Below are positions 1 to 33,447 of a DNA stretch of 33,650 nt, piece after piece. The notes under the pieces were generated by a model. That model saw only the letters and a list, made by a program, of their open reading frames with translations, did no database searches and had not been told where the DNA came from. The translations under genes and the position numbers were made by a program. Within the stretch, counting starts at the first letter, position 1. Each line of letters starts with the position of its first letter. Source of the DNA: an uncultured bacterium (GTDB lineage: Bacteria; Patescibacteriota; Minisyncoccia; Phycocordibacterales; UBA9973); the NCBI GenBank assembly GCA_903834665.1, contig CAILJY010000078.1, positions 1 through 33,650 of the forward strand. The letters are read 5' to 3'.

Positions 1-3000
1 AACTGACATCACAACAGTTGCAATGTCGGGAAGTGGAACAGTATATACTTATTCATACACAGTAGTCGCAGCTAATGGAAGTACATATGTTGATGGAGTT
101 GCAACAGTTAGTTTATCTACAATAGTTGATACTGCAGGGAACTCATCAAGTGCTCCAACAGAAAATACTTTTACAATAGATACCGTAGGACCAAGTACAA
201 CAATTTCTACAATAGAAATTGATCCAACAAAAAATTCTCCAATTCCAATTACTATTACATTTGAGGATTCAGTAACTGGATTTACTACAGCAGATATAAT
301 AGTAACTGGAGGTACAAAGAGTGTTTTATCTGGAACAGGTGCATCTTATAGTTTTGACTTAACACCAACTGGTGATGGTTTATTAACTGTAGATATAGGT
401 CCAGGTGTAGCATTTGATACTGCAAATAATGGAAACGTTATTGCTACACAACTCGCTATAAATTATGATGGAACTAGTCCATCTTCTGAAATTACAGCAA
501 TTTGTTCAACTGGGACAAATGGATGTACTTTGGTTGGAGAAAATACAAATCCTCAAGAGTCTTATAATGTACAGTCTATAACAGGTAATGCTTCAGATGT
601 TGTAGGAGGTTCAGGTCTTGACGTGGTAGTTATATCTATCAAAGATGTGACTGCCAATAAATGGTACAGTGGGTCTAGTTTTATAAATGACGTTGAAACA
701 TTTTTAGATACAACAGGAACTGATACTTGGTCATTTAATTCATCTGCTGTAGCCTTAACAATTGATCATACTTATATGATTAATTCAAAAGCTATAGATA
801 TTGCAAACAATGAACAAAGTTTATTAGGATCTTTGTCTTTTAAATTTACAAATGCTCCACCAACCGTTTCTTCTGTTACTGCTTCACAAGAAGCAAGTGG
901 TGTTGTTAATGTTACTTATGATGTTGATGATATTGAATCATCCGGAACAACCAACTATCTATTTTATGGAGTTGAAGCTACTTTAAATGGAACTATTTCT
1001 GATTCAGTAAATTCTTTGACAGTTTCTAGTGGAACAAATTTTCCCTTATCAGGAACCATCTTGATTGATGATGAGATAATTAGTTATACAAGTAAATCTG
1101 GTAATGTTTTACAAGATCTAACAAGAGGAGCTTTAAGTACAACAGCTTTTTCTCATGATACAAGTACTCAAGTATATATAAAAGCTAATAATGTGACTGG
1201 TAATGGTATTGGTTTATCTGGTATTGGCCCCAACAAAACTATTGCATGGTCAGCAAGAGATGATGCCTATGGTTATTATAGTAGTAATGGAGTTATTAAA
1301 GTAGTCGCAAATGACGGATCAACTGGTTCAATGATTGGGTCACTTTCTTCTCCGGTTTTTGCTATTGATGCAGCAAGACCTTTAACAGATTCTTCTACTT
1401 TATTAATCAATGATTCTGCCACTAGTATTTTTGGTGCTTCTCCTGAAGTTGTTTTAAAAATTCAAAATGTTACTGGTCAACCAGAAAATGAAAATATATT
1501 TGTTCAATTTTCAAGAAATGCAGGTGGTACATGGTATGGAGCAAATGAAAATGGGACACTTTCTGGAGAAGGAACTCTAGGCTCAGGGTTTGCCTCAAGT
1601 TTAGCAAATACAGGATCTATTTCTTGGCCATGGACGATGCAATCAAGAGCAGAAACTTTAGTGGTTAGAATTACTGATAGTTTTCAAAATACTTCAATAG
1701 AAGATATGAATACTACAGAGTATAATGCTCCTCCAGAATTTAATATTAATTATCCAGCAACTGGAAATGGAGGTTTGACGGTATCTCAAATATCAGATCC
1801 AGATGATATAAATTTTGGAAAAGTTAAAATTCAATATTCAATTAGAAATATAGATACAGAAGGAGATGTGGTTCCTTATTTTGTCACACCTTCTTTTAAT
1901 TATGATACTGGAAGTGGTTGGAACTTAATATCACAAGGGGATATAACTTATGGTGATGTTCCTTTGGGAGGACAAGTTGTAGATCAAAATACTGATGGAT
2001 TATTAGATAATAAAGTTTCGTCATCTTCATTTCATATTTATACAGCTTATTGGACAATTCCACTTGGAGTTGAAACAGAAGCTGGTCAATTTAAAATAAC
2101 CTTAAACGATCTTGGCTCAAGTAATAATATTTCTAGTAATACAGTTTCTAATTTGATTTTTGATACCGAAGAACCTGATGGTGGAGTTGTTTATTTTGAC
2201 GCAGGAGTTGCAGGTTCTGTTGGTACAGGATTGGTTACCATCCCATTACCAACAGACGTATCAAATGTTTTTTACCGAATCAGTGATGATATTACAACTA
2301 ATTCATCAGTAGAAGATACAGGCTGGGTTAGTATGACTAGTAGTACAACTATTCCTTGGACTTTTGATATCGATACAGAAATAAAAACTTTGAAATATCA
2401 ATATAGAGATTCATATGGAAATACAACTAATGAGATAACCCTAGCAACCCTTGCTCCAATTTCTGGAACTTCATTTTTAGTTCAAGATGCGTCTAACCCA
2501 AATATTCCTTCTTATGATATGTATATCGGATGGGAATCAGTAGCTAGTTCAACTGGGTTTGCTTCTTATAAATTAGAATTTGCTACGTCAACAGATAATT
2601 CCACGTATACAGCATATAGTTCTGTTGGTGGTGGTGGAATGTCTGATACAATGACAAATTATTATGTTCATAGAAATTTAAACTCTAGCTGGTATTATAA
2701 ATATCGTTTAGGTGTTACTGGGACAGATGGCAATACTTCTATTCGTGCTGGTTCACCAGTTACAGCAAAACCTGATGGAATTCAAAATTACGGAGAGGGT
2801 GGTGGAGGTGGAGGAGTTGCGACTGCTTCTCAAGTTGAGAATGTTGTTCCATCTCAAGATCCTACAACAAAAAATGTTACGGTAAATTATCGTTTAACAG
2901 ACGGATCATTTTCTAAAAAAATATCTCCTTCTTATGAAGCCCGTCTTTTCTATAATATCGGTGTAACTCTACCAGCAAATGCATATGGAGATAATACTCT

Positions 3001-6000
3001 TGCTGTTTCTGATGCTTCCAAATTGAAATCTTCAGGTTACATTCAAATTAATAATGAAGTTATCGCTTATAGTGGAAAAACAGGAAATGTTTTAACTGGA
3101 TTAACTAGAGGCACTTGGCCGACATCTCCTCGAGGAACTAGACAAAATTCTATTTTCTTCCAAGGTACACCTGTTTGGATAATGGCTTCGACCGTAGCTC
3201 CAACAACTATTACAAATTCTTCAATACCTACAGGTCAAAACAGTTCTATTGTTTGGACTACCTACGATGAGTCTAGTCTTGCCGGAGGAAATTATAGTAA
3301 TGTCGGAATAAGAGTTTTAGTTCATGATAATCAAAGTGCAGGATCTGGTCCATTATCAACTCAATCTGATTATTCTGAAATTGGAACATTGGATTCTTTG
3401 AATTTAACTGCTCCAACTATTTCTTTTGACGCATTATCTTCAAATGGAGATGAAAATGTTTCTTCGGTTGATATTCCGTTAACTCTAGGAAGAGCTTACG
3501 TCATTAATTCTACTGTTGATTATACAGTTACAGGTACAGCTACAGGAGGTGATGTAGATTTTACTTTAATAAATGGCACTGCAACAATAATAGCAGGAAC
3601 TACAAGTACAAATATTTCATTAGCAATAATTGAGGATTTGTTGAATGAAGTTGATGAAAACATTGTTATAACATTATCAAATCCAACAGGATCTATTTTG
3701 GGAACCAATACGGTTTACACTTATACCATCAATGATAATGACAATGATCCAGAGATTCAATTTACTTCTACAAGTTCAAGTGGCCAAGAAAATATAACGC
3801 CTATTGATATAAATGTTTCAATACCTAGTATTTCAAGTTCAGACGTAACTGTTGATTATACAGTTACAGGTACAGCTACAGGAGGTGATGTAGATTTTAC
3901 TTTAATAAATGGCACCGCTACTATAACAGCAGGAAATACGAGCACCAATATTTCTCTTGCGATTATAAATGATAGTATTTATGAATCAAATGAAGATGTT
4001 GTAATTACTTTATCAAACCCAAATGGAGCAATATTAGGAGCCAATACTATTTACACTTATACAATTACAGACAATGATACAACTCCAATAATTAGTTTTA
4101 CTAATACAAATGAAAGTGGAGTAGAAAGTGTTACTTCTGTTGATTTACCTATCAGTATTTTATTTGCATCTTATCAAGATACAACAGTCTCTTATACTGT
4201 CACAGGTGGGACAGCAACGAGTACTGATGACTTTGTTCTAGCCTCTGGTACTGCAACAATAACTGCAGGAACTACAAGTACAAATATTTCATTATCTATA
4301 ATTGATGATACCCTCAAAGAAATAAATGAAACTGTTATCGTAGAATTATCATCTCCCGTAAACTCAACTCTTGGAGTCAATACTATTTATACTTATACAA
4401 TTACAGATAATGATTCTCTTCCAACTATTGCTTTTACAAACACAACAGGCTCTAATCTTGAAGATGTAACTTCTATTAATATACCTGTAAGTATTTCAGG
4501 AATTTCTGGAATAGAAGCAGTTGTTTCTTATGCTGTCACAGGTGGAACAGCAACGAGTACTGATGACTTTGTTCTAGCCTCTGGCACTGCAACAATAATA
4601 ATAGGTCAGACAAGTGTAGATATATCACTTTCAGTTGTGGATGATTTACTTAGTGAAGCAACTGAAAATATTGTTATAACATTATCAAGTCCAACTGGAG
4701 CAACACTAGGAACAAATACAGTTTATACTTATACAATTACAGACAATGATACTGACCCAACTATTGCATTTACTAATACTACAGGGAATGGATTAGAAAA
4801 TGTTTCCTTGGTTAATATTCCAGTTTCTTTGCCTTCAGTTTCTGCTAAAAATTCAACAGTTGGATATTCTATTAAAGCAGGAGGAACTGCAACTTCAGGA
4901 GTCGATTATATTCTTTCTTCTGGAACTGCAACAATAAATGCCGGACAAATGAGTACAAATATTTCATTAGCTATAATTGATGATACACTCAAAGAAGCAA
5001 ATGAAACTGTTATTGTAGAATTATCATCTCCCGTAAACTCAACTCTTGGAGTCAATACTATCTACACTTATACAATTACAGATAATGAACCTAATCTAAA
5101 TGTTGCTTTTGTAAGTTCTAATTCTTCTGGTTTTGAAAGTATTACTTCAGAAGGAATTAATTTAACTTTGGCTTCTGTCTCATCTCAAGATGTAACTGTT
5201 GATTATACAGTCACAGGAGGAACAGCAACAGGAGATGGAACAGATTTTACTTTAGCAAATGGTACTGCCACAATTACAGCTAATACAACTACCGTTGAAA
5301 TTCCTTTCACTGTTGTAGATGATTTATTAATTGAATCAAACGAAACAATAATTGTAACATTATCTAATCCTACAAATGCATCTTTGGGGACAAAAACTAT
5401 TCATACTTATACTATTATAAATAATGATACAGATACGGTATCTCCGACAGTAACGTTAAATGGAGATGCAACTATTTCAGTTACAAGAGGAGATTCTTAT
5501 ACAGAATTAGGATCAATCGTAACAGATAATGTCGACGTAGGGTTAACGGCGACTATTACTGGATCTGTTAATACTAGTTTAATTGGCTCTTATGTATTGA
5601 CCTATACAGCGACAGATAGTTCTAATAATATCGGGACGGCAGAAAGAACAGTAAATGTTGTACTTGCTTTGGCTTATGATATTACATCAACTGCGGGAGC
5701 AGGTGGAACAATTAGTCCACTTGGCATTACTGCTGTGACTTCAACTGCGAATCAAGCTTATACTATAACTCCAGAGGCTGGGTATGGAGTAGATACTTTA
5801 GTTGTGGATGGAGTACCTTTGGCTTCAGCTCTTACTTATACATTTACGAATGTAGTGACTACTCATACTATCGATGTGACGTTTTCTCTTGATCCAGATG
5901 TTACTCCTCCAGTTATAACACTACTTGGAGATAATCCTATGACTGTTATAAAAGGAGAAACATATGTTGAGCCAGGAGTAACAGTTCTTGATGGTATTGA

Positions 6001-8314
6001 TGGAGTAATTGTTCCTGTTATAACTGGATCGGTTAATATAAATAGTATTGGTTCTTATACAATAACTTATACCGCGACTGATTCATCTCATAATAAATCT
6101 ACAGAAACAAGAATTGTTAACGTTGAATATGCTTCTAGTTATATAATAAGATCATCCTCTGGTTCTAATGGAACTATTGACCCATTAGGAGAGACAGCTG
6201 TTCCTTCCACGACTAGTCAAACTTACACAATTGCTCCTAACGAAGGATTCAAAATAGCCACTCTTGTAGTTGATGATGCAAACCTAGTTGTAGAATCTAG
6301 TTATACATTTACAAACGTTGTAGGACCACATCAGATAGATGTGACATTTTCTCCTGTTGATGGTTTACCTCCTACTATAACCATCTTAGGAGATAATCCA
6401 ATGACGATTAATACAGGGGAAGCCTTTGTTGATCCAGGAGCAACTGCTGTTGATTCTACTACCAATGAAGCTTTAGTTGTTACAACTGTTGGTAATGTAA
6501 ATAATTCAACAGCTGGAACTTATCAGATAACTTACTTTACAAGTGATTCATTAGGAAATACTGCAACAGCTGAAAGAACTGTTAATGTTGTAGATATATC
6601 TCCTCCAATTATTTCTGGGATAGAAACTCCTGTTAAATCAGCCAATGCTGCTGTTATAGTTTGGCAAACAAATGAACCAGCAACTTCTCAAGTTATTTGG
6701 GGAACAGCAACAGGTAATTTAACAAGAAATACTGTTATAGATGAAGTCTTATCTGTTTATCATGTTATATCACTTAGTTCAGGTACATTTGATTTAGATG
6801 ATTCTTCTAATATTTTGGAACCTACAACTAATTATTTCTTTACAGTTAAATCTGCTGATAATGCTGGAAATGAAACTGAATCCACTGAACAAACATTTAC
6901 AACTACAGCAGATGGACAAGTTGTCGTAGTAAGTTCTTCCTCTAACAATAACGATAATACTTCTAATCTAATTCCAGATATTACTGCTCCTTCTATCTCT
7001 AATGTAAAAGTTTCAGACATAAATGCTTTTGGAGCAACTATTTCTTTTGATACAAATGAAGAGACAATGTCATTTGTGGAATATGGAAAAGAAACAACTT
7101 ATGGAGATACTATGGGTAGTAGTAAATGGTTAACTTCTCACTCAATAAAATTAAGTGGGCTAAGAATAGGAACAGATTATCATATGAGAGTTACGGTGGT
7201 AGATAAATCTGGTAATTCAACAACAACAGAAGATGAAGTATTTAAAACAAAATATTTCAATGAAGTAACTGACAGTCTTAAAACTATTGATAATCTTGAA
7301 CAATTTCAAGCTGAGATAGAAGCAACAATTGAATCAATTCTTCCATCATTAATTCCTCCATTTATTGAAAAACCAAACATCGTTAATATTACAGAAAATG
7401 GAGCAATGGTAACATATCGTACAAATATTAAAGCTTATCCAGCTGTAAGCTTCTCGACTGATGAGTTCTATAATAAAACAAAAGATAAACCTTATGATGG
7501 AGAAATATCAGATACAACAGCAGAAAAAAGTTTTTCTCATAGTTTAGTTCTTTCAGGTTTGAAAGCAAATACTAAATATCATATTATGGCAAAAGCTTTC
7601 TCTCTCCCTCAAGTAGTTGGACAGTCTGATGATATAGTCTTTACAACTTTACCTTCAAAAATTTCAGGAGCAATAATAGATAAAAAGAAAGATTCATTTA
7701 CTGTTGTGTGGACGACAGATGAACCTACTACTTCTATTGTTGATTACAAAAACACAATTACAGGTAGAGCTTCTAGAACAATAGATAATAGCCAAAATAC
7801 TTCTCACTCTATAAAGATAGAAAATCTAACTCCTGGAACTTCGTATCAAGTCGATATCTCTGGTCTTAATAAAGAGGGCAATATATTTGAAGCAGCCGCA
7901 TCTTTATTTGTGACAACTTCTGTGGATGTTATCGCCCCAGTAATTAATAATGTGAAAGTTGATAGTGCTTTAGTTCTCGGACGTACAGATAGAATTCAAA
8001 CAATAATCTCATGGCAAACAGATGAACCTTCTACTTCAATTGTTTATTATGAAGAAGGATCTGGAATTTTGAGTAAAGAATTAGCAAATAAACAAGAGGA
8101 TCTAAATACATTTACCACAAATCATTCTATCGTCTTAACCTCATTAAAACCAGGAACAGTTTATCGTTTCCAAGTAGCTTCGACAGATAGTGCCAATAAT
8201 ACCGTTAAACCTCCTATACGTACTATAATTACCCCTCGTAGAACTGAATCTATCGTTGATGTTATCTTTAAGAACTTCAATGAAACGTTCAATTTTATAA
8301 ATAATTTCAAATAA
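1..8314 (+). CDS. Giant repeat-rich surface/adhesin-like protein, 5' truncated (Ig-like, Calx-beta, DUF5011-like and fibronectin-III-like modules)
   Basis: ORF is open from base 2 in the same frame, so the ATG at 23 is probably internal. About six repeats of the type 'VDYTVTGTATGGDVDFTLINGTATITAG...NISLAIIDD...E..E.VVITLSNP.GA.LG.NT.YTYTI.DND' (Calx-beta-like), then 'SVTRGDSYTELGSIVTDNVD...GSYVLTYTATDSSNN' (DUF5011-like), then 'VVWTTDEPTTSIVDY' modules (FnIII-like). Confidence 0.9.
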   Translation, partial: TDITTVAMSGSGTVYTYSYTVVAANGSTYVDGVATVSLSTIVDTAGNSSSAPTENTFTIDTVGPSTTISTIEIDPTKNSPIPITITFEDSVTGFTTADIIVTGGTKSVLSGTGASYSFDLTPTGDGLLTVDIGPGVAFDTANNGNVIATQLAINYDGTSPSSEITAICSTGTNGCTLVGENTNPQESYNVQSITGNASDVVGGSGLDVVVISIKDVTANKWYSGSSFINDVETFLDTTGTDTWSFNSSAVALTIDHTYMINSKAIDIANNEQSLLGSLSFKFTNAPPTVSSVTASQEASGVVNVTYDVDDIESSGTTNYLFYGVEATLNGTISDSVNSLTVSSGTNFPLSGTILIDDEIISYTSKSGNVLQDLTRGALSTTAFSHDTSTQVYIKANNVTGNGIGLSGIGPNKTIAWSARDDAYGYYSSNGVIKVVANDGSTGSMIGSLSSPVFAIDAARPLTDSSTLLINDSATSIFGASPEVVLKIQNVTGQPENENIFVQFSRNAGGTWYGANENGTLSGEGTLGSGFASSLANTGSISWPWTMQSRAETLVVRITDSFQNTSIEDMNTTEYNAPPEFNINYPATGNGGLTVSQISDPDDINFGKVKIQYSIRNIDTEGDVVPYFVTPSFNYDTGSGWNLISQGDITYGDVPLGGQVVDQNTDGLLDNKVSSSSFHIYTAYWTIPLGVETEAGQFKITLNDLGSSNNISSNTVSNLIFDTEEPDGGVVYFDAGVAGSVGTGLVTIPLPTDVSNVFYRISDDITTNSSVEDTGWVSMTSSTTIPWTFDIDTEIKTLKYQYRDSYGNTTNEITLATLAPISGTSFLVQDASNPNIPSYDMYIGWESVASSTGFASYKLEFATSTDNSTYTAYSSVGGGGMSDTMTNYYVHRNLNSSWYYKYRLGVTGTDGNTSIRAGSPVTAKPDGIQNYGEGGGGGGVATASQVENVVPSQDPTTKNVTVNYRLTDGSFSKKISPSYEARLFYNIGVTLPANAYGDNTLAVSDASKLKSSGYIQINNEVIAYSGKTGNVLTGLTRGTWPTSPRGTRQNSIFFQGTPVWIMASTVAPTTITNSSIPTGQNSSIVWTTYDESSLAGGNYSNVGIRVLVHDNQSAGSGPLSTQSDYSEIGTLDSLNLTAPTISFDALSSNGDENVSSVDIPLTLGRAYVINSTVDYTVTGTATGGDVDFTLINGTATIIAGTTSTNISLAIIEDLLNEVDENIVITLSNPTGSILGTNTVYTYTINDNDNDPEIQFTSTSSSGQENITPIDINVSIPSISSSDVTVDYTVTGTATGGDVDFTLINGTATITAGNTSTNISLAIINDSIYESNEDVVITLSNPNGAILGANTIYTYTITDNDTTPIISFTNTNESGVESVTSVDLPISILFASYQDTTVSYTVTGGTATSTDDFVLASGTATITAGTTSTNISLSIIDDTLKEINETVIVELSSPVNSTLGVNTIYTYTITDNDSLPTIAFTNTTGSNLEDVTSINIPVSISGISGIEAVVSYAVTGGTATSTDDFVLASGTATIIIGQTSVDISLSVVDDLLSEATENIVITLSSPTGATLGTNTVYTYTITDNDTDPTIAFTNTTGNGLENVSLVNIPVSLPSVSAKNSTVGYSIKAGGTATSGVDYILSSGTATINAGQMSTNISLAIIDDTLKEANETVIVELSSPVNSTLGVNTIYTYTITDNEPNLNVAFVSSNSSGFESITSEGINLTLASVSSQDVTVDYTVTGGTATGDGTDFTLANGTATITANTTTVEIPFTVVDDLLIESNETIIVTLSNPTNASLGTKTIHTYTIINNDTDTVSPTVTLNGDATISVTRGDSYTELGSIVTDNVDVGLTATITGSVNTSLIGSYVLTYTATDSSNNIGTAERTVNVVLALAYDITSTAGAGGTISPLGITAVTSTANQAYTITPEAGYGVDTLVVDGVPLASALTYTFTNVVTTHTIDVTFSLDPDVTPPVITLLGDNPMTVIKGETYVEPGVTVLDGIDGVIVPVITGSVNINSIGSYTITYTATDSSHNKSTETRIVNVEYASSYIIRSSSGSNGTIDPLGETAVPSTTSQTYTIAPNEGFKIATLVVDDANLVVESSYTFTNVVGPHQIDVTFSPVDGLPPTITILGDNPMTINTGEAFVDPGATAVDSTTNEALVVTTVGNVNNSTAGTYQITYFTSDSLGNTATAERTVNVVDISPPIISGIETPVKSANAAVIVWQTNEPATSQVIWGTATGNLTRNTVIDEVLSVYHVISLSSGTFDLDDSSNILEPTTNYFFTVKSADNAGNETESTEQTFTTTADGQVVVVSSSSNNNDNTSNLIPDITAPSISNVKVSDINAFGATISFDTNEETMSFVEYGKETTYGDTMGSSKWLTSHSIKLSGLRIGTDYHMRVTVVDKSGNSTTTEDEVFKTKYFNEVTDSLKTIDNLEQFQAEIEATIESILPSLIPPFIEKPNIVNITENGAMVTYRTNIKAYPAVSFSTDEFYNKTKDKPYDGEISDTTAEKSFSHSLVLSGLKANTKYHIMAKAFSLPQVVGQSDDIVFTTLPSKISGAIIDKKKDSFTVVWTTDEPTTSIVDYKNTITGRASRTIDNSQNTSHSIKIENLTPGTSYQVDISGLNKEGNIFEAAASLFVTTSVDVIAPVINNVKVDSALVLGRTDRIQTIISWQTDEPSTSIVYYEEGSGILSKELANKQEDLNTFTTNHSIVLTSLKPGTVYRFQVASTDSANNTVKPPIRTIITPRRTESIVDVIFKNFNETFNFINNFK

Positions 8315-11457: not shown

Positions 11458-13245
11458 TTAATATACTTCTTGCTGATAACACTTCTCACAATACACTATC
11501 TCAGGTCTTTCTGGAGAGTATGATGTGTCAAATTCGTTTTGACATTTTTCTTTTCCATGAGAATGTTCAATAGTATTACTATACTTACTATTTGATGAAT
11601 GATCTCCACTACAACAACACTGTCTTTTATAGAGTTTACTTTTATTTCTTTGAGAAATGCGTTCTTTGTGACGACAATCAACACAATAACGTGGAATTGG
11701 TAATTTGCTATACCTTAAAAATTGTAATTCATTAGGAATTATTTTATAGGCACGTTTACATTTATCACAAGAAATAATCTCTTTTAAAATATCGTCAGAT
11801 ACATCTATTATATCGTCAGATATATTGATAGAATTTATTGAGACAGTATATTCATTTTTAGGAACCTCATACCAATTAGCACCATAAGATAGTATTTCTT
11901 CTTTTGATAAAGGAAATTGTTCAGGAGTTATTGTATCATTGTATGCAAACGGAGAGAATTCGGGTGGGAAAAACTCACCATATTTATAAACTCTACCCTT
12001 ACTATCTATATATGGCATATCATTCATATGTTTACGTATTTCATCTCTCAATTTATAAAATTCTTCTTTATTGTATTTTTTATTTAAAATAACATAATCT
12101 CCACTGTTAACACTAACACTTCCAAAAATATGATTAGCCTTTTTACCACAAAACATACTATATTCAAAATCTATTCCTCCATCCCAACACTCAAAAGAAA
12201 AACGTACCTGTGAGGAATTCCAACCACAAGTCATGCTCTCATATATCTGTTCACTATTATAACCACTTACAGTCGCATCAAAACAGTCTTTACTCCCTGG
12301 TGTTTGGCTATAATGCACATATTTTAAATCCTCTCCTCCTCTAATTAAGTAACTATTTCTAACATTCTTAGAATTTGATATATATTCACCTAGGCAATTA
12401 TAATTTTTAACTCCCTGAGTATATTTTACAGGAAAATTTAACCAAAAATTATTAGCTTTTTCTTTTATTTCCTTAAGGTTAGACCATTTTGATATATTTA
12501 AAGATTTTATTTTTTCATTATATTTTTCTTTAGATAGTTGTTCATTAAAATAACAATAGGATTTATTCCTTAAATTTACACAACCAAAACAATTAGAACA
12601 TCCGGTACAATTCTTAGAAAAATAAACAGATACACATTCGTCACATTGTGATGAAAAATGAGTATCAAAACATTTATTTAACCAAAATGATTCATAACAT
12701 CTTTCTGATGAGGTTATATGAGAATTATCAAAACAATTTTTACAAAAATCTATAGCATTACCGTAAGCTGAATCCTCATCAGTTGATGCATTAAAAATTA
12801 AATAACAATTCTTTAAATTATCAGCATTGCCAGAATAATCGCTTTTTACCATGTTTGTAGCATCTAATTGACGGTGTGGAACTTTTAAACTCAATTCATG
12901 AAGTTGAAATAGAAAGGGTTTTGATCTATCAAAATCTATTCCATAAGAAAATGGATCCCAATTATCGCTAAACCAATAACTGTCTTCATATATTGGGAAT
13001 TTAGCTTCGGGAGGGAAAAGAGCAAGTATCGGGTTGCCAGTAACACCATCTACATTTCTAAAAAGTTTTCTCTCATTACGGAAAAGACATCTTCTTTGGA
13101 ATCTACATTCCGAACACCAAGTGGGTGCTGGTATTTTATATTTAGCAGAAATTGAAATTTTCTCATAGAATAGAAAATCATCCGGCTCGATGATAAATTT
13201 AAGTTTGCAATTCTGACATATTCTAGTTTCTTCTTTATATTCCAT
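11458..13245 (-). CDS. Cys-rich double-zinc-ribbon protein, paralog 1
   Basis: Start set at 'MEYKEETRICQNCK' because the longer ORF start lies inside a palindrome. N-module 'RICQNCKLKFIIEPDDFLFYEKI...PTWCSECR', C-module 'ISCDKCKRAYKIIPNELQFLRYSKLPIPRYCVDCRHKERISQRN', end 'PERPEIVYCEKCYQQEVY'. Confidence 0.9.
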   Translation of the reverse strand: MEYKEETRICQNCKLKFIIEPDDFLFYEKISISAKYKIPAPTWCSECRFQRRCLFRNERKLFRNVDGVTGNPILALFPPEAKFPIYEDSYWFSDNWDPFSYGIDFDRSKPFLFQLHELSLKVPHRQLDATNMVKSDYSGNADNLKNCYLIFNASTDEDSAYGNAIDFCKNCFDNSHITSSERCYESFWLNKCFDTHFSSQCDECVSVYFSKNCTGCSNCFGCVNLRNKSYCYFNEQLSKEKYNEKIKSLNISKWSNLKEIKEKANNFWLNFPVKYTQGVKNYNCLGEYISNSKNVRNSYLIRGGEDLKYVHYSQTPGSKDCFDATVSGYNSEQIYESMTCGWNSSQVRFSFECWDGGIDFEYSMFCGKKANHIFGSVSVNSGDYVILNKKYNKEEFYKLRDEIRKHMNDMPYIDSKGRVYKYGEFFPPEFSPFAYNDTITPEQFPLSKEEILSYGANWYEVPKNEYTVSINSINISDDIIDVSDDILKEIISCDKCKRAYKIIPNELQFLRYSKLPIPRYCVDCRHKERISQRNKSKLYKRQCCCSGDHSSNSKYSNTIEHSHGKEKCQNEFDTSYSPERPEIVYCEKCYQQEVY

Positions 13246-13250
13246 ATTTT

Positions 13251-13294
13251 TAATTTGGTACAAACTCTGCACGTGCAGAGTTTGTACCAAATTA
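13251..13294. repeat. 44-bp perfect palindrome between paralogs 2 and 1
   Basis: TAATTTGGTACAAACTCTGCAC/GTGCAGAGTTTGTACCAAATTA, no spacer; fills most of the 58-bp gap between the stop of paralog 2 and the start of paralog 1. Confidence 0.95.
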
Positions 13295-13303
13295 TTTATT
13301 TAA

Positions 13304-15025
13304 TTAATATACTTCATTTTGATAACACTTCTCACAATACACTATCTCAGGTCTATCTGGTGCATAAGAAGTTTCAAAGGTGTTTGTACATCCTTCTTTC
13401 ATACAAGAGCGATGCCACAATTTCATAGGGTTTCTTTGAGATAAGCGTTCATAGTGTCTACAGTTAGGACAAAGATGTGGTAATGGTAGATTCATTCGTT
13501 TATAGAAAGATAGTTCTTCAGGGATGATCCTGAAGGCTTCTGTACACTGTTGATTGCATTCTCCCTTATGATCACATTCTATTATTTTGGTGGTTATATC
13601 ATCATTTACATCATTAATATCATCTGGTATGTCTTTACTATATATATCTATATTGTAATTACGTTCTTCTTTGTCTTTCCACTTATATCCTTGTTCTATG
13701 GCTTGTTCTTTGTTTAATGGAAAATATTCTTGAGCTACTGTCTCATTGTAAGCAAATGGGGATAATTCACTTGGGAAGAATTCTCCGTATTTGTATACTC
13801 TACCACAACTGTCTATGTAGGGCTGATCTGACATATGTTTGATGATTTTGGGGACTAGTTCTTCGTATTGTTCCTTGGTGTATTGTTTATTGAGGATGCA
13901 GTATTGTTTGGAATTGAGTCCGACACAACCAAAGAGATTTCTGGAATTAGACACGCAACTATAAATAAAAGAAGAGTCTGATGTATTACTAATCGCGACT
14001 CCAAATTTTGTATTACTGGCTGATCCTGGTCCATTACATTCATAACAGAGTTCAGGACTAGTAGCAGTAGTAATATCATAATTATCTGAGCCTCCTCCTT
14101 TTAAGAAACGCCAAACATATTTTGAATTATTTGTTTCATAAATATCAAATGAATTATGACAATTATGAGAATGTTCAATACTGTTACCAGAAACATCTTT
14201 AGAGTTTGTGATATCAGCAAATTTTCTAATTGATTTTAATAATTTGTTTTTATAAATACCTTTTATTTTTTCGAGATTAATAAATGAATTTAATTTTAAA
14301 GATTTTATTTTTTCAAAGTATTCTTCTTTTGTGTATTTTTCATTAAAAATATAATACTGTTTATTTCTTAGATTCCAACAACCAAAACAATTTGAACAAT
14401 TTTTACAATTATATAAAAACATAGAATCAATACAGATACTTGCTTTTATACTCAAATAAACATTAAAACAATTATTACAATCAATGCATTCATATAATAA
14501 ATCACTATTACGTGAAGAAAGTAAGTCTAAAGAATTTTTACAATCATTTATACCATCTGAGTAACAGCAATTTTCATTTCTATTTGCAGAAAAGACAAGA
14601 TAACAATTTTTTGAGTCAATCGTCATATTAGTGTAATCACTATTTATCATATTTATTCCACCAACATTAGGAAGTGGTACTTCTTTAAAGAGATCAAAAA
14701 ATTGGATAAAAAATGGTTTAGAAAAATCATAATCTTTTCCGTAAACTAAAGGATCAAACTTATCAGACCACCAAAATTCTTTATCTGACACTTTTAGATC
14801 TTTATCGTTAGAATAGACGGAAATAACCTTTTCACTATGACCTTCTATTGAACAATTAGTTTTATATAGATTTCTAACATTTCTCCAAATCATTCTTCTT
14901 ATCATTCTACATTCCGGGCAAAAGGTTGGAGGGGGGACTTTGATTTTTTCATAGAAAGAGAAATCATTAGGCTCAATAATGAAATCATTCTTACAATTCT
15001 GGCATATTCTAGTTTCGGGATTCAT
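13304..15025 (-). CDS. Cys-rich double-zinc-ribbon protein, paralog 2
   Basis: 'ETRICQNCKNDFIIEPNDFSFYEKIKVPPPTFCPECRMIRRMIWRN' ... 'CSNCFGCWNLRNKQYYIFNEKYTKEEYFEKIKSL' ... 'RIIPEELSFYKRMNLPLPHLCPNCRHYERLSQRNPMKLW' ... 'APDRPEIVYCEKCYQNEVY'. Confidence 0.92.
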   Translation of the reverse strand: MNPETRICQNCKNDFIIEPNDFSFYEKIKVPPPTFCPECRMIRRMIWRNVRNLYKTNCSIEGHSEKVISVYSNDKDLKVSDKEFWWSDKFDPLVYGKDYDFSKPFFIQFFDLFKEVPLPNVGGINMINSDYTNMTIDSKNCYLVFSANRNENCCYSDGINDCKNSLDLLSSRNSDLLYECIDCNNCFNVYLSIKASICIDSMFLYNCKNCSNCFGCWNLRNKQYYIFNEKYTKEEYFEKIKSLKLNSFINLEKIKGIYKNKLLKSIRKFADITNSKDVSGNSIEHSHNCHNSFDIYETNNSKYVWRFLKGGGSDNYDITTATSPELCYECNGPGSASNTKFGVAISNTSDSSFIYSCVSNSRNLFGCVGLNSKQYCILNKQYTKEQYEELVPKIIKHMSDQPYIDSCGRVYKYGEFFPSELSPFAYNETVAQEYFPLNKEQAIEQGYKWKDKEERNYNIDIYSKDIPDDINDVNDDITTKIIECDHKGECNQQCTEAFRIIPEELSFYKRMNLPLPHLCPNCRHYERLSQRNPMKLWHRSCMKEGCTNTFETSYAPDRPEIVYCEKCYQNEVY

Positions 15026-18953: not shown

Positions 18954-20603
18954 ATGGATAGAAAATGCGAACACTGCCAGAAAGAATTCCACATTTCAGT
19001 AGGGGAACTTTCTATGTATGAAAAGGTTGGGATAGAGATACCGATACAGTGTTTTTTGTGTAGAATAAAACACCTATTATATTTTTGGACATTTGGAAAG
19101 TTTAGAAAAGGAACATCTGATTTATCAGGAGAAAGTTTAATTACAGTTCTTCCTGTTAATAGTAGATATCCAATTTATACTCTACATGAATGGTATAGTG
19201 ATAATTGGGATGCAATGGATTTTGGGGTTGATTATGATCCGATGCAACCATTTTTTAAACAGTTGCAAAATTTACAAGAAAAAATTCCACGTCCACATCA
19301 AAATGGAGCGAAGAGTACTAACTGTGACTGGTGTGATGATGTTTGGAGTTGTAAAGATTCTTATCTATCTCGCTCAATGGTTGATTGCGAAAATTTATTC
19401 TATTCATACAGAAACATAAAAGTAAAGAATTCAATTGACCTTGTTGTTTGTTTTGATTCAGAAAGGTGTTTTGAGTGTTTTAATTGTTATAATTCTTACA
19501 AACTTTTTTATTCTAGAAATTCAAAAGATTGTATAGAATCTTACTTCTTGGGAGATTGCCGTAATTGTCAAAACTGTTTTATGTGTTGGAATTTAAGAGG
19601 GAAATCATATTGTATAGAAAATATTCAATATACCAAAGAAGAATATTTTGAAAAGTTAAAATCTTTTAATATTGATTCATATAATTCGGTTAAAAATTAT
19701 AAAAAAATATTTGAAGAAATTGCTCAAAAAGAAATAGTGCACAAGGAGAATTTTAATTTAAGATCTTATAATTGTAGTGGAAATTATTTATTAGATACAA
19801 AAGATTGTAGCAATTGTAATACAATATCAGGATCTGAAGATTGCTATAATTGTGTTCGTAATGGTTGGTTAAAATCTTCTATTGATATTGTAGGGTGTAT
19901 GAATTTGGAATTATCAGGGAATTGTAGTTCTTGTCAACCAAGCGGTTATTCTCTAAAGTACTCTAGTTGGTCACCATCAAGATTCTCTGAATATCTTGAC
20001 CTATGTGTAGAATGTGAATATTGTTTTGGTTGTGTTGGATTGAAAAAGAAGAAATATTGTATTTTAAATAAACAATATGAAAAAGATGAGTATGAAAATC
20101 TAAAAAATAAAATAATAGATGATATGAAAATGCGGGGTGAATATGGACAGTTCTTACCATATTCTATGTCAACTGGGCCTTTTAATTTTTCGACAAGTTT
20201 TTTATATTTTCCTAAAACCAAAAAAGAGGATGTTTTGAAACTTGGTGGTTATTGGGAAGATTTGGATGAAAGTCACATTGAAGGGATACCGACTAGTCAT
20301 TTGCCTGATTCGATTAATGATGTTGATGAAAAAATTTGCTCCCAAGCCTTGATTTGTCCGGAGACAGGTTGGCGTTTTAATATTGCTCAAAATGAATTAA
20401 TTTTTTATAAACAAAATAATATTCCCTTACCCAGGTATCATTTTGATGTTCGAATAAAAGAATTACTTAAATATTCAACTGTTTTAGATACATCATTGTA
20501 TGAATGTTGTTATTGTAAGAAAGAAATAGATGCTTATTATCCGAAAGATTGGGGATATAAAAATATTGCTTGTGAAAATTGCTATAAGCAAAATCTAAAC
20601 TAA
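18954..20603 (+). CDS. Cys-rich protein, paralog 3 (C-terminal zinc ligands partly lost)
   Basis: 'MDRKCEHCQKEFHISVGELSMYEKVGIEIPIQCFLCR', 'CRNCQNCFMCWNLRGKSYCIENIQYTKEEYFEKLKSFN', 'CFGCVGLKKKKYCILNKQYEKDEYENL', C-module 'LICPETGWRFNIAQNELIFYKQNNIPLPRYHFDVRIKELL'. Confidence 0.9.
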   Translation: MDRKCEHCQKEFHISVGELSMYEKVGIEIPIQCFLCRIKHLLYFWTFGKFRKGTSDLSGESLITVLPVNSRYPIYTLHEWYSDNWDAMDFGVDYDPMQPFFKQLQNLQEKIPRPHQNGAKSTNCDWCDDVWSCKDSYLSRSMVDCENLFYSYRNIKVKNSIDLVVCFDSERCFECFNCYNSYKLFYSRNSKDCIESYFLGDCRNCQNCFMCWNLRGKSYCIENIQYTKEEYFEKLKSFNIDSYNSVKNYKKIFEEIAQKEIVHKENFNLRSYNCSGNYLLDTKDCSNCNTISGSEDCYNCVRNGWLKSSIDIVGCMNLELSGNCSSCQPSGYSLKYSSWSPSRFSEYLDLCVECEYCFGCVGLKKKKYCILNKQYEKDEYENLKNKIIDDMKMRGEYGQFLPYSMSTGPFNFSTSFLYFPKTKKEDVLKLGGYWEDLDESHIEGIPTSHLPDSINDVDEKICSQALICPETGWRFNIAQNELIFYKQNNIPLPRYHFDVRIKELLKYSTVLDTSLYECCYCKKEIDAYYPKDWGYKNIACENCYKQNLN

Positions 20604-25883: not shown

Positions 25884-27548
25884 ATGGAAACAAAAAATTG
25901 TCAAAAATGTAGGCAGAATTTTACTCTTGAACAAGATGATTTTTCTTTTTATGAGAAGATGAAAGTGTCAGTACCAAACATTTGTCCAGACTGTCGTTTC
26001 AAAATGCGAGCAATGTGGAGGAATGAAATGACTTTATATTCTGGTCAGGAATGTGAAATGTGTGGGAAGAAGGTTATAACTATTTATAATCCTAAATCAT
26101 CATATATTAAATATTGTCATGATTGTTTTTATTCTGAAAAGTGGAGCCCCAAAGATTATACTAAACCATATGATAAATCAAAAACTTTTTTTGATCAAAT
26201 GGGAGAATTTTTAAAAGAAGTTCCAAAGAATTGCTTGGGTATTTCTACTGGTGATGGTCAAAATATAAATAGTGATTATATAAATATGGCTTCTGGTTGC
26301 AAGAATTGTTATCTTGTTTTTAACACAAGTCCTGCTGAAGAATTATTATACTCAAGAGGTGTAAAAAATGGAACTTTTTCTTCTGATGTATATTTTGGAG
26401 TGAAATTTGAGAATTGTTATGATTGTGTCAGTGTTCAAGAATCAGCTAATGTCTTCTGGGGGCAAAATGTTACAGGTTGTGTTGAATCCTATTTTATATT
26501 AAATGGTAGTGGACTTACAAACTGTTTTGGCTGTGTAAATTTAAGGAACAAAAGTAATTGTTGGTTCAATGAACAATTAACATCAGAAGAATACAAAAAA
26601 AGATTGAGTGAGGTAATGGGTAGTTATACAAAAATTGTGGAAGCTCAGAAAAAGTTTCAAGAATTTTGTTTACAGCATCCACATAGAGAGAATAATAATT
26701 TAAAAACAGTAGATTGTGTAGGAGATTATCTAACAGAATGTAAAAATGTTGTTAACTCTTTTGAAGTTTCTAAATCAGAGAATTGTCGTTATCTTTTTTC
26801 TTCAAAAGTGATAAAGGATTCATTAGGCACTACAGGTTTTGGAACAAAATCAGAACAATTATTGGAAGTAGTTGCCACTGGGTATTGTAGTAATGTAATA
26901 GGTTCATATTGGGCAGAAAATTCTAGTAATATAATGTATTCTTTTGATTTGAGAAATTGTCAGGATTGTATTGGTTGTGATGCATTAAGAAATGGTAAAT
27001 ACTCTATTTTTAATAAAGAATATACAAAAGAAGAATATGAAGAACTTAAAAATCATATAGTGAAAGAACTTATAGCTTTGGGTATTCATGGATTAATGAT
27101 GCCACCAGAGATTGCTCCATTTGCATATAATGAAACAATAGCACAAGATAATATACCCTTAACTAAAGAGGAATCATTATCTCAAGGCTTCAGATGGGAA
27201 GATGACATACAAATGACTAAAGGCAAAGAGACTATACAGTCAAATGAAATAGAAGATAATATAAAAGATATTAAAGATTCTATAACAAGTGAAATATTGA
27301 AATGTATAAATTGTGAGAGGAATTATAAAATTATAGAACAAGAATTATTATTTTATCGAAAGATGAATTTACCAATTCCAAGAAGATGTTTCTATTGTCG
27401 TCATCAAGATAGAATTAAAAGACGAGGGCCTTATAAATTCTGGGATCGCAAGTGTGATCATTGTGATAAAGATATAAAGACAAATTATTCTCCAGAAAGA
27501 AAAGAAATAATTTATTGTGAAAAATGTTATCAACAAGAAGTAATATAA
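25884..27548 (+). CDS. Cys-rich double-zinc-ribbon protein, paralog 4
   Basis: 'METKNCQKCRQNFTLEQDDFSFYEKMKVSVPNICPDCRFKMRAMWRNE' ... 'CFGCVNLRNKSNCWFNEQLTSEEYKKRL' ... 'CINCERNYKIIEQELLFYRKMNLPIPRRCFYCRHQDRIKRRGPYKFWDRKC' ... 'ERKEIIYCEKCYQQEVI'. Confidence 0.92.
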   Translation: METKNCQKCRQNFTLEQDDFSFYEKMKVSVPNICPDCRFKMRAMWRNEMTLYSGQECEMCGKKVITIYNPKSSYIKYCHDCFYSEKWSPKDYTKPYDKSKTFFDQMGEFLKEVPKNCLGISTGDGQNINSDYINMASGCKNCYLVFNTSPAEELLYSRGVKNGTFSSDVYFGVKFENCYDCVSVQESANVFWGQNVTGCVESYFILNGSGLTNCFGCVNLRNKSNCWFNEQLTSEEYKKRLSEVMGSYTKIVEAQKKFQEFCLQHPHRENNNLKTVDCVGDYLTECKNVVNSFEVSKSENCRYLFSSKVIKDSLGTTGFGTKSEQLLEVVATGYCSNVIGSYWAENSSNIMYSFDLRNCQDCIGCDALRNGKYSIFNKEYTKEEYEELKNHIVKELIALGIHGLMMPPEIAPFAYNETIAQDNIPLTKEESLSQGFRWEDDIQMTKGKETIQSNEIEDNIKDIKDSITSEILKCINCERNYKIIEQELLFYRKMNLPIPRRCFYCRHQDRIKRRGPYKFWDRKCDHCDKDIKTNYSPERKEIIYCEKCYQQEVI

Positions 27549-28403: not shown

Positions 28404-28438
28404 AAAAAACTGCACAGGTCAGACCTGTGCAGTTTTTT
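28404..28438. terminator. Bidirectional intrinsic terminator between convergent genes
   Basis: AAAAAACTGCACAGGTC-a-GACCTGTGCAGTTTTTT; perfect. Confidence 0.9.
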
Positions 28439-29948
28439 ATTTTAAAATTTTAATATCAGCTCCAATAGAATTTAATCGTTCGGCGATTTCTTCATAGCCA
28501 CGATTAATCATATAAACATTGCGTAAAATTGAGGTACCAGGTGCTCCAAGCATACCGATTAGTATTATCATCGCAGGACGGAGAGCGGGAGGGCAAACAA
28601 CTTGAGCTGGCTTTAAGGGTGTCCCACCTTGAATGTAGACCCGGTGTGGATCAGCGAGAGTAATACTCGCTCCGAGCCGATTTAATTCTGTAAAATAAAT
28701 TGCACGATTTTCATAGACCCAGTCATGAATCATTGTCTGACCCTTGGCTTTTATTGCAATTGGAACAAAGAATGGTAGGTTGTCCATATTTATTCCAGGA
28801 TATGGATTTGCATGAATCTTATCTTCAAGAGCTTTTAGTTTTGATGGAAATATTTTTATATCAACGAGATTTGTTCTTTCGTTATATGATTTATATTTTC
28901 GTAAAATTTTATATTTTAATCCCATCCTTTTTAATTTTTCAAGTTCTAAAGATAGAAAATCAATAGGAGAGCGAGTTATTGTGAGTTCAGAATCAGTTGT
29001 TATAGCTGCGGAAATAAACATCATTGATTCTATTGGGTCTTCACTATTATAGTATTCAATATTTTGATTTAAATCTTTTAGTCCATGAATAGTAAGAGTG
29101 CTTGTCCCTATCCCTTCAATTTTAACCCCAAGTTTTTCTAAGAAAAAACATATTTCTTGAACCATATAATTTGCACTCGCAAATTTTATTGTTGTTATTC
29201 CATTTATTTTAGAAGCGGCTATTAAAATATTTTCGCAAGCAGTATCTCCTGCTTCATACATAACAATATCAGCTCTTTTTAGATTAGGAGTCTCAATTAT
29301 ATATTCATTATTTGTAGTTTTTATTTTTACTCCAAAATCGGAAAGAGCATAAGTGTGAGCACTGATAGTTCTTTTTCCAAGCTTACATCCAGAAACATGC
29401 GGAATAGAAAATTTAGGAAGTAAATGTATAAGTGGTCCAATAAGCATTATAACAGAACGGGTTTTAATAGCTGACTCAATATTTATTTTATCGAGAGCTA
29501 ATTTTTGAGGAGGAATTATTTGAACTGAATTTTTATCTATCCATTTTACTGACACCCCAATACTTTCCAAAATTTCAATCACACGGTTTACTTCCTCGAT
29601 GCGAGCAATACCATGAAGAGTTGTTGTTCCTTTATTTAAAAGGGAAGCACAAAGAAGACCAACCGAGCCATTTTTAGAAAAATTTGTTTTTATTGTCCCA
29701 CTTAATTTTTTACCACCCTTAACTTCAAAATCAATTGAACTATTAACTGAAACAATTTTATGGTCAAGAACATTGCTTATTTTTAATAATAATTCTGTGG
29801 TGAAGTTTTGTTCACCTTTTTCCATGCGGGGGATAGAGCTTTGGGAAGTCTCAAGAGCTTTAGCAAAAGCTTCTTGGGTCATCCCGCGACGTTCACGTAA
29901 TTCTTTTATAAAATAACCAATTTTTTGTTGCTCTGTTTGTTTTTTCAT
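28437..29948 (-). CDS. murA: UDP-N-acetylglucosamine 1-carboxyvinyltransferase (MurA) with N-terminal XRE-type HTH domain
   Basis: N-term 'IGYFIKELRERRGMTQEAFAKALETSQSSIPRMEKGEQNFTTELLLKISNVL' (XRE HTH), then MurA-like 'SGTIKTNFSKNGSVGLLCASLLNKGTTTLHGI', 'PHVSGCKLGKRTISAHTYALSDFGVKI' (Cys-loop), 'HANPYPGINMDNLPFFVPIAIKAKGQTMIHDWVYENR'. Confidence 0.9.
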   Translation of the reverse strand: MKKQTEQQKIGYFIKELRERRGMTQEAFAKALETSQSSIPRMEKGEQNFTTELLLKISNVLDHKIVSVNSSIDFEVKGGKKLSGTIKTNFSKNGSVGLLCASLLNKGTTTLHGIARIEEVNRVIEILESIGVSVKWIDKNSVQIIPPQKLALDKINIESAIKTRSVIMLIGPLIHLLPKFSIPHVSGCKLGKRTISAHTYALSDFGVKIKTTNNEYIIETPNLKRADIVMYEAGDTACENILIAASKINGITTIKFASANYMVQEICFFLEKLGVKIEGIGTSTLTIHGLKDLNQNIEYYNSEDPIESMMFISAAITTDSELTITRSPIDFLSLELEKLKRMGLKYKILRKYKSYNERTNLVDIKIFPSKLKALEDKIHANPYPGINMDNLPFFVPIAIKAKGQTMIHDWVYENRAIYFTELNRLGASITLADPHRVYIQGGTPLKPAQVVCPPALRPAMIILIGMLGAPGTSILRNVYMINRGYEEIAERLNSIGADIKILK

Positions 29949-29960
29949 ATTTTAATTTAA

Positions 29961-30057
29961 AGAGTTTCATATATTAAAATTTTACTCATTTATCCCTACC
30001 TCGCTTCGCTCGGCGCGCGCCCACACCTATTCGTAAAATTTTAATATATGAACCTCT
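29961..30057. repeat. Long inverted repeat with GC-rich central segment between murA and murB
   Basis: AGAGTTTCATATATTAAAATTTTAC ... GTAAAATTTTAATATATGAACCTCT: 20 bp exact (29966-29985 / 30033-30052), ~25 bp with one mismatch; ~47-nt loop with CTCGCTTCGCTCGGCGCGCGCCC. Confidence 0.92.
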
Positions 30058-30075
30058 TCTCTTGTTAATAATATA

Positions 30076-30105
30076 TTGTATATTTTATCTCATATATGAT
30101 ATAAT
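30076..30105 (+). promoter_or_regulatory. Sigma70-like promoter of murB
   Basis: TTGTAT (30076-30081), 18-bp spacer, TATAAT (30100-30105), ATG 8 nt further at 30114. Confidence 0.65.
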
Positions 30106-30113
30106 TGCAATAT

Positions 30114-31145
30114 ATGGAAATACAAGAATATGTGGATATCAAAAATTATTCAACTTTTAAAATAGGAGGCCAGTTTCGCTATTTTGTAGTTATTTCATCC
30201 ATAGAAGAACTTTCACAAATCTACGTTATCGCGCGTGAAGATGTAAAATATAAAAACACTCCAATTTTTATATTAGGGGGAGGATCTAATATTGTTTTTT
30301 CTGATGGAGTTATAAATGTTGTAGCTTTAAAAATTGAAATTAAGGGTTTTGAAATTATAAATGAAACAGATGAATATCTTGATATAAGGGTAGGAGCTGG
30401 TGAAAATTGGGATGATTTCGTGAAGAGATCAGTAGAGATGAATTTATCTGGGGTAGAAGCAATGTCTATTATTCCTGGCACTGTGGGGGCGGGCCCAGTC
30501 CAAAATGTCGGGGCTTATGGGGTAGAAGTCAAAGATATTATTTTGAACGTTGAAGTCTTTGATAAAAATATAAATGAATTTAAGATTCTTTCAAATCTAG
30601 ATTGCAAATTTGGATATAGGGATAGTATTTTTAAAAATGAAGAAAAAGATAGATATATTATAACTTATGTAATTTATCGTCTTTCTAAAAAAGAACCAAG
30701 GATCCCCAATTATCCAGATGTTCTTAAATATTTTGCAGATAAAAATCTTTTAAATCCAAGCTTAGAAAACATAAGAGAAGCTATTATTTTTATAAGGAAT
30801 AGTAAATTACCAGATTTTAGAAGATTACCTAACGTTGGATCTTTTTTTAAAAATCCAATCATTGAAAATATCTTAGCAGATAAATTAAAGGAAAATTATT
30901 TAAATATTAAAATTTTTCCAATAGACGAGAATTATTCGAAAATTCCTGCTGGCTGGCTTATTGAGAATGCTGAGTTAAAAGGGAAGTCATTTGGCAATAT
31001 TTCTGTTTATGATAAAAGTGCGCTTGTTCTAGTCAACAACAATAATGCTAGTTTTGATGACTTAATTTATGCAAAGAATGAAATAATCAAAATAGTTTTT
31101 GATAAATTTAAAATAACCTTAGAACAAGAGCCTGAGATTGTATAA
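30114..31145 (+). CDS. murB: UDP-N-acetylmuramate dehydrogenase
   Basis: 'NYSTFKIGGQFRYFVVISSIEEL', 'FILGGGSNIVFSDG', 'VEAMSIIPGTVGAGPVQNVGAYGVEVKDII', 'FGYRDSIFK', 'LPNVGSFFKNPII'. ATG 30114 preferred over TTG 30105. Confidence 0.94.
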   Translation: MEIQEYVDIKNYSTFKIGGQFRYFVVISSIEELSQIYVIAREDVKYKNTPIFILGGGSNIVFSDGVINVVALKIEIKGFEIINETDEYLDIRVGAGENWDDFVKRSVEMNLSGVEAMSIIPGTVGAGPVQNVGAYGVEVKDIILNVEVFDKNINEFKILSNLDCKFGYRDSIFKNEEKDRYIITYVIYRLSKKEPRIPNYPDVLKYFADKNLLNPSLENIREAIIFIRNSKLPDFRRLPNVGSFFKNPIIENILADKLKENYLNIKIFPIDENYSKIPAGWLIENAELKGKSFGNISVYDKSALVLVNNNNASFDDLIYAKNEIIKIVFDKFKITLEQEPEIV

Positions 31146-32778: not shown

Positions 32779-33447
32779 ATGGGTTCTATTATGAAAAAGG
32801 AATTAGAGAAAAAAGCAAAAGAATTAAGAAAAGAAGGATATTCGATAAATGAGCTAAAAGGAACACTAAATGTATCAAAGAGTACAATTTCTAGATGGGT
32901 TGCTGATATAAAACTTTCCAATGAAGCTCAAGTTAGAATTGATAAAAATTATTCAAAAGGTCAGTTGGCTTCTCAAAAAACAATTAAAGAAAAAACAAGA
33001 TTAAAAAATTTTGAAGCTGATAATTTTGCAATTAATAAACTTAAGGATTTAAATATAAATTCGGATTGCTCACTACTTCTGTGTTCTATGTTATATCAAT
33101 GTGAAGGAAGTAAATATATAAAAGATCCTGTTACTTTTACAAATTCTGGCCCTGAACTAATAGGAACATTTTTACATTTATTTAGAAAAAGTTTTGTTTT
33201 AGAAGAAGATAAATTTAGGGTTTTAATGCATTTACATGGTTATCATAATGAAAAGACACAAAAGAAATTTTGGTCTAAAATTACAGGAATTCCGATGAAT
33301 CAATTTTTAAAAACATATAATAAACCAAATACAGGTATTTATAAAAAAGATGGATATCAGGGTTGTATTCAGGTTAGATATCATAATGTTAAAATTGGTA
33401 GAATTATTAATGCAGTTGCAAAAAAGTTTATGGAAAGGTATAAATAA
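32779..33447 (+). CDS. HTH-containing, LAGLIDADG-homing-endonuclease-like protein
   Basis: N-term 'ELRKEGYSINELKGTLNVSKSTISRWVADIKLS' (resolvase-like HTH), then 'LLLCSMLYQCEGSKYIKDPVTFTNSGPELIGTFLHLFRKSF...KFRVLMHLHGYHNEKTQKKFWSKITGIPMNQFLKTYNKP'. An ATG at 32791 is an alternative start. Confidence 0.7.
   Translation: MGSIMKKELEKKAKELRKEGYSINELKGTLNVSKSTISRWVADIKLSNEAQVRIDKNYSKGQLASQKTIKEKTRLKNFEADNFAINKLKDLNINSDCSLLLCSMLYQCEGSKYIKDPVTFTNSGPELIGTFLHLFRKSFVLEEDKFRVLMHLHGYHNEKTQKKFWSKITGIPMNQFLKTYNKPNTGIYKKDGYQGCIQVRYHNVKIGRIINAVAKKFMERYK

Follow-up and report, generated by a model that had tools for sequence, protein, structure and literature searches.

The murA locus and its fused gene

The DNA analyzed here, referred to as the window, is a whole stretch of 33,650 nucleotides (nt) from an uncultured bacterium of the Patescibacteriota (Minisyncoccia, Phycocordibacterales, UBA9973; contig CAILJY010000078.1 of assembly GCA_903834665.1, positions 1 to 33,650). 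On its reverse strand, at 28437-29948, it carries a gene of 503 amino acids from the ATG, kept at full length in the genus, whose product consists of a helix-turn-helix (HTH) domain joined to a MurA enzyme and is called HTH-MurA below. The divergent murB gene is located on the forward strand at 30114-31145, with an ATG at 30114 (the start in the open reading frame list is a TTG at 30105). Between the two genes an 18-bp palindrome was observed at 30086-30103 (TATCTCATATATGATATA; other strand, TATATCATATATGAGATA). It is the only perfect site in the genome and is predicted to be an operator shared by murA and murB.

When a consensus promoter scan was applied, the palindrome was found to fill the 17-nt spacer of the murA promoter (30082-30110, reverse strand; -35 TTGCAA at 30110-30105 and -10 TAAAAT at 30087-30082), a layout kept in relatives. 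A putative murB promoter (30076-30105, forward strand; -35 TTGTAT at 30076-30081 and -10 TATAAT at 30100-30105), whose -10 box overlaps the palindrome, was read by eye from the sequence and was not reported by the scan. In the window about 137 nt separate the palindrome from the fusion start codon, and a large inverted repeat (29960-30058) lies in between.

The HTH domain comprises residues 1-62 (29763-29948, reverse strand). It belongs to the XRE/HTH_3 (Cro/CI-like) domains by its match to Pfam HTH_3 (residues 14-62; 46.9 bits, cut-off 23) and by the helix-turn-helix fold of a high-confidence full-length model. In this AlphaFold model, built with 96 homologues (mean predicted local distance difference test score, pLDDT, 93.7), four HTH helices (residues 6-20, 25-32, 38-43 and 51-61) are followed by a looser linker (residues 62-72; 29733-29765, reverse strand), which has a pLDDT of about 70 between two well-predicted domains, and by a MurA fold. 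The recognition-helix region, residues 34-43 (TSQSSIPRME; 29820-29849, reverse strand), co-varies with the operator half-site in relatives (see below). Prediction of the HTH alone from its single sequence gave a poor model without a significant structure match. Among solved structures, the closest sequence match of the HTH is the designed protein DBP48, followed by C-proteins of restriction-modification systems and other XRE regulators; its nearest natural relatives include C.AhdI, C.BclI and C.Esp1396I.

The MurA domain (residues 73-503; 28440-29732, reverse strand) matches Pfam EPSP_synthase (residues 76-492; 139.5 bits, cut-off 22.8) and the NCBIfam model PRK09369/NF006873 (UDP-GlcNAc 1-carboxyvinyltransferase; 312 bits, cut-off 297), but its score of 301 stays below the 392.7 demanded by the stricter equivalog model TIGR01072. 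When the fusion model was compared with solved MurA structures using Foldseek, the template-modelling score (TMt) was approximately 0.9. The KN motif SKNGSV (K92-N93) and the Cys loop SGCKLGKR (C188) are both present, as are all the catalytic residues checked (K92, N93, R164, C188, R193, D389, R415, R457 and R483), which we take from the motifs to be the counterparts of K22, N23, R91, C115, R120, D305, R331, R371 and R397 of E. coli MurA. The first eight do not vary among the aligned relatives (165 fused and 54 unfused), and R483 is invariant wherever the alignment covers it. In addition, alanine (A455; codon 28584-28586) stands in place of E. coli D369 across the clade, fused or not, with one glycine.

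A first-pass annotation of the window, made from the letters alone, had described this gene as an XRE-type HTH in front of a full MurA with both motifs retained. The motifs were found as described, and the architecture is confirmed by Pfam, NCBIfam, AlphaFold and conservation in the genus. By fold, curated model and catalytic residues the fusion contains a complete MurA, and enzyme activity is likely, as it is the sole candidate in the genome.

Copy number and distribution of the fusion

Only one gene with the EPSP-synthase fold (PF00275), HTH-MurA, was found when the assembly (687 kb, 96% complete) was searched with the profile. Each fused relative searched also has a single match. The unfused genome G028 has an extra, marginal fragment match, and the other relatives with a match have one each. 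HTH-MurA thus most probably serves as the housekeeping MurA rather than as a spare copy. As a separate observation, genome G494 carries two fused genes (L222 and L285) on different contigs, with similar operators at both.

The whole fusion was found in genomes of the same genus at 76-87% identity, and searches at the level of family, order, class and phylum recovered it from many families of Patescibacteria, some of them of other classes. The genomes compared are mostly metagenome-assembled. Named records with the fusion are mostly Candidatus Nomurabacteria/Paceibacterota, in addition to one Candidatus Saccharibacteria bacterium (49-20). The arrangement suspected from one sequence is thus common in the phylum and no curiosity of one genome.

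Close relatives that do not have the HTH exist even inside one genus code (g14, in which G306 and G284 are fused and G292, G073 and G268 unfused). In a FastTree phylogeny built from only the MurA part (220 sequences), presence and absence of the HTH require a minimum of 28 changes, of which the split into gains and losses is uncertain because it hinges on rooting with a single outgroup. Loci L230 and L277 have degenerate HTH-like N-termini, and the score cut-off placed them among the unfused genes or left them out.

Where the HTH is present, its ratio of nonsynonymous to synonymous polymorphism (pN/pS) is 0.195 vs 0.177 for the enzyme, which indicates a similar purifying constraint. In 96 sequences with identities down to 50%, eight HTH residues (R18, Q25, Q36, R41, E43, G45, Q47 and N48) do not vary. 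Since the fusion is conserved in the genus and its HTH is under purifying selection, it is confirmed as genuine; it is not an artefact of the reading frame, nor is its N-terminal part a dead extension.

A palindrome upstream of fused murA genes

When the upstream DNA of relatives was read, an AT-rich palindrome was spotted directly 5' of the fused genes. It spans 18 bp (TATATCATATATGATATA and variants). Sites were scored by their best fit to two consensus forms, and as a threshold a score of 15/18 or more was required in the 330 nt upstream. As these forms were partly learned from the same data, the contrast of fused and unfused genes, the reversed-pattern control and the covariation described below guard against bias without removing it.

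At this threshold the palindrome was found in 148 of 166 distinct fused genes; among the unfused genes belonging to the same clade of MurA, 1 of 54 has it. The same score was reached in none of 166 coding stretches of equal size and never in shuffled upstream DNA. When 119 genomes of the family were scanned with an IUPAC pattern, 49 were positive, nearly always with one site each, and the reversed-pattern control gave 0; all 49 positive genomes carry a fused MurA. Among 14 independent well-supported contrasts on the tree, the palindrome follows the HTH in 11-12 and does the opposite in 0 (median two-sided p 0.0005).

The position of the site is conserved as well. Among relatives it lies in a -35/-10 spacer of 16-17 nt, and the fusion start codon follows at a median of 11 nt. 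A divergent murB adjoins murA in 41 of 166 fused vs 1 of 54 unfused loci, some loci being too short to show the neighbour, and where murB is divergent its start is usually 7-14 nt from the site.

The first-pass annotation had suggested that the HTH could bind the inverted repeat upstream and had named the fragment 29949-30113 for a binding assay. The repeat does exist (arms at 29960-29985 and 30033-30058). Its arms of 26 nt are 96% complementary around a GC-rich loop, approximately 100 nt overall, and it folds as a strong RNA hairpin (z -6.3). Among 367 fetched loci it was found in no other genome. It was thus rejected as the operator, being specific to this genome and placed in the murA leader, and the predicted target is instead the smaller palindrome, which sits inside the same fragment. 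The repeat resembles a small repeat element that was inserted recently. An Rfam scan detected only three tRNAs in the window, and none of the known riboswitches was recognized in the murA leader.

The 18 fused genes below the score were inspected individually. In two of them (L094 and L182) the palindrome precedes a two-gene operon containing murA. Three (L080, L207 and L013) have a contig start or foreign-looking DNA upstream, one (L097) has a decayed recognition helix with lost HTH glutamines and no palindrome, and five retain half-sites that are degenerate or incomplete, in or close to the normal position. The remaining seven form one divergent clade (L269 and L271-L276), which is considered below. 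In G362 and G390 the site is found before a phosphatase-like gene upstream of murA in an apparent operon, and in G393 it lies at the extreme end of one contig and murA starts another. The decayed HTHs of L230 and L277 are likewise without a palindrome. Most of the exceptions are informative. In the phylum-level clade of the seven, a different palindrome (ACACTATATATAGTGT type) was observed 130-250 nt upstream of L272, L274, L275 and L276, which lack the usual one.

Half-site specificity and symmetry

The half-site sequence was compared with the recognition helix of the adjacent gene. TATAGC half-sites accompany 29 of 30 TTQ helices, and other helices go with TATATC, TATCTC and similar half-sites in 114 of 117 cases (29/1/3/114; Fisher 3e-26). 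L304, the sole miss among the TTQ helices, does carry an AGC half-site that was overlooked by the scoring. Similarly, 10 of 11 symmetric TATCTC sites go with a QSS[IV]P helix (10/10/1/126). In L235 (family code f188) helix and half-site both differ from those of its family relatives. Symmetric T-A to G-C changes of the half-sites were observed in 9 distinct sites, above slid and shuffled controls, as expected of a site read by a symmetric dimer.

Together with the association of palindrome and HTH, this gives strong comparative support to the earlier suggestion that the HTH may link peptidoglycan-precursor synthesis to transcription of murA and murB. From its sequence, HTH-MurA can be described as an enzyme that carries a DNA-binding domain and whose own promoter holds a predicted cognate operator.

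Proposed mechanism and alternative explanations

We propose that HTH-MurA is bifunctional: it would serve as the housekeeping MurA and, as a dimer, would repress its own gene and any adjacent murB. To this reading we assign a probability of roughly 0.83. The MurA domain would convert UDP-N-acetylglucosamine (UDP-GlcNAc) and phosphoenolpyruvate (PEP) to enolpyruvyl-UDP-GlcNAc. Two HTH domains would form a symmetric dimer and contact both TATAYC-type half-sites of the palindrome, and the linker would leave them free to pair on DNA during catalysis by the MurA domains. The bound site, located in the -35/-10 spacer, would block RNA polymerase at murA; where murB is divergent and adjacent, the same site overlaps its -10 box and would govern the first two steps of precursor synthesis. 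A rising MurA level would then shut its own supply, a negative feedback on enzyme amount. DNA binding, dimer formation, repression rather than activation and feedback are inferred from the position of the site in the core-promoter spacer, its dyad symmetry and its covariation with the HTH of the adjacent gene. The -35/-10 spacer is a classical repressor position.

Several observations weigh against this reading. The clade of L269 and L271-L276 has an intact HTH and only the right half-site, GATATA, overlapping the -10 box; its operator has perhaps changed. The palindrome is kept in L306, where the HTH is absent. The coupling of TTQ with TATAGC corresponds to about 7 tree changes and 3 well-supported contrasts (2 agree, 0 oppose) and is not significant alone. 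Conservation of part of the right half-site (GATATAAT) could reflect no more than a -10 box. Finally, MurA is usually regarded as a monomer, which means that dimerisation has to be provided by the HTH or by the DNA.

As an extension of autorepression, the repressor may be gated by metabolites. UDP-GlcNAc or PEP in the catalytic domain would alter the affinity of the HTH for DNA, so that murA and murB, and in certain lineages other precursor genes too, are adjusted. We regard this extension as tentative and rather doubtful, and modulation of DNA binding through the ligand state of the MurA domain is a guess.

Activation of murA and murB by the bound HTH, or activation combined with repression, is unlikely. 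It is suggested by the presence of C.AhdI, C.BclI and C.Esp1396I among the nearest natural solved relatives, and C-proteins are described as concentration-dependent switches in activation and repression (PMC3115060). However, a single site in a normal spacer of 16-17 nt between good -35 and -10 hexamers should block rather than recruit polymerase, and a second upstream site is not seen in the conserved layout.

A lower probability still is given to the HTH serving only to regulate or oligomerise the enzyme, with the palindrome bound by another regulator or being a mere promoter feature. L306, as well as a TrpR-like regulator elsewhere with a similar palindrome before its own gene, would fit this explanation. 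However, the presence and half-site sequence of the palindrome follow the HTH of the MurA fusion itself, the decayed HTHs (L097, L230 and L277) have no palindrome, and the site is essentially confined to the murA gene.

That the HTH is a neutral relic and the working MurA starts at an internal codon downstream of it is very improbable. In favour of this reading, at least 28 tree changes indicate that the HTH is dispensable in some lineages. Against it, the pN/pS of the HTH is similar to that of the enzyme, eight HTH residues are invariant in 96 divergent sequences and the promoter and operator abut the start codon of the HTH.

Other sites and neighbouring genes

Operator-like sites were also found at some other genes. 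In genome G315 an exact operator lies 8 nt before a MurC/Mpl-type Mur ligase gene (L194:1982-3417), on a different contig from murA. In the genome studied here a one-mismatch operator precedes a PgeF-like gene, a NUDIX hydrolase gene and a sugar nucleotidyltransferase gene (C83:11844-14205; L201:845-3205), and in G343 an exact operator precedes a NUDIX-nucleotidyltransferase pair of the same type (L192:2008). No operator was found at the homologues of the murC-like gene and of the nucleotidyltransferase genes that were retrieved from relatives. The sites are thus not conserved in homologous loci, which suggests no broad regulon and at most a sporadic extension beyond murA and murB. In G284 a second site lies between recJ-like and RNase H-like genes. 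Two genes for TrpR-like regulators (L251:1081-1513 and L252:1021-1450) have a palindrome (TCTATCATATATGATATA) that resembles the HTH-MurA operator; one of the two comes from a genome whose MurA is unfused. One-mismatch sites in G353 and G377 (before a TrpR-like regulator gene) and in G387 and G395 (near unrelated genes) were not counted.

Elsewhere in the window, four similar proteins of 550-610 amino acids with repeated Cys motifs are encoded at 11458-13290, 13304-15025, 18954-20603 and 25884-27548; the one that was scanned has a weak treble-clef zinc-finger match at its C-terminus. A giant open reading frame of 2763 amino acids (23-8314) is repetitive and surface-protein-like. A protein of 222 amino acids (32779-33447), adjoining a tRNA gene, shows a weak N-terminal HTH match and no family at cut-off.

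Comparison with known systems and significance

Enzymes that act as repressors are already known as a class. BirA senses biotin demand via biotinoyl-AMP. BirA of E. coli and B. subtilis is, like HTH-MurA, a biosynthetic enzyme with an N-terminal HTH and with relatives that lack it, and this HTH represses genes of the pathway, as is proposed for HTH-MurA; group II biotin ligases have the N-terminal HTH and group I do not (PMC4016012). It differs in its enzyme and HTH family, and in HTH-MurA the predicted operator lies at the promoter of the enzyme itself. PutA, unlike HTH-MurA, is a catabolic enzyme. Its DNA-binding domain differs from that of HTH-MurA. As a 'trigger enzyme', this proline dehydrogenase directly represses its own operon (PMC6978683), as is proposed for HTH-MurA.

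The C5-DNA methyltransferases M.SsoII and M.Ecl18kI share the layout and size of the fusion. In M.SsoII an N-terminal region of 71 residues, modelled on the phage 434 repressor and followed by a flexible linker, represses its own gene (PMC3978073). These enzymes modify DNA in restriction-modification systems and are not housekeeping biosynthetic enzymes. C-proteins (C.AhdI, C.Esp1396I and C.BclI) are sequence kin of the HTH and regulate their own systems from symmetric sites, but they stand alone without an enzyme part. Ordinary MurA, of E. coli and others, has the same fold and catalytic residues but no HTH, and its D369 in E. coli is alanine in the fusion clade. In the open-access literature no paper on a MurA with a DNA-binding domain was found, an absence which is weak evidence.

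If the proposal is true, the first committed enzyme of peptidoglycan synthesis would act directly as a transcription factor. We found no description of such a role, and it would occur in an extensive radiation of very small bacteria, most of them uncultured, about whose gene regulation almost nothing is known. The predicted operator is available in many genomes, and the repeated changes in HTH presence and absence provide a natural experiment. The specificity switch between TSQ/TATATC and TTQ/TATAGC is open to testing, including in Saccharibacteria, some of which can be cultivated with a host and manipulated. If metabolite gating is also true, a minimal host-dependent cell would sense its precursor supply with the very enzyme under control.
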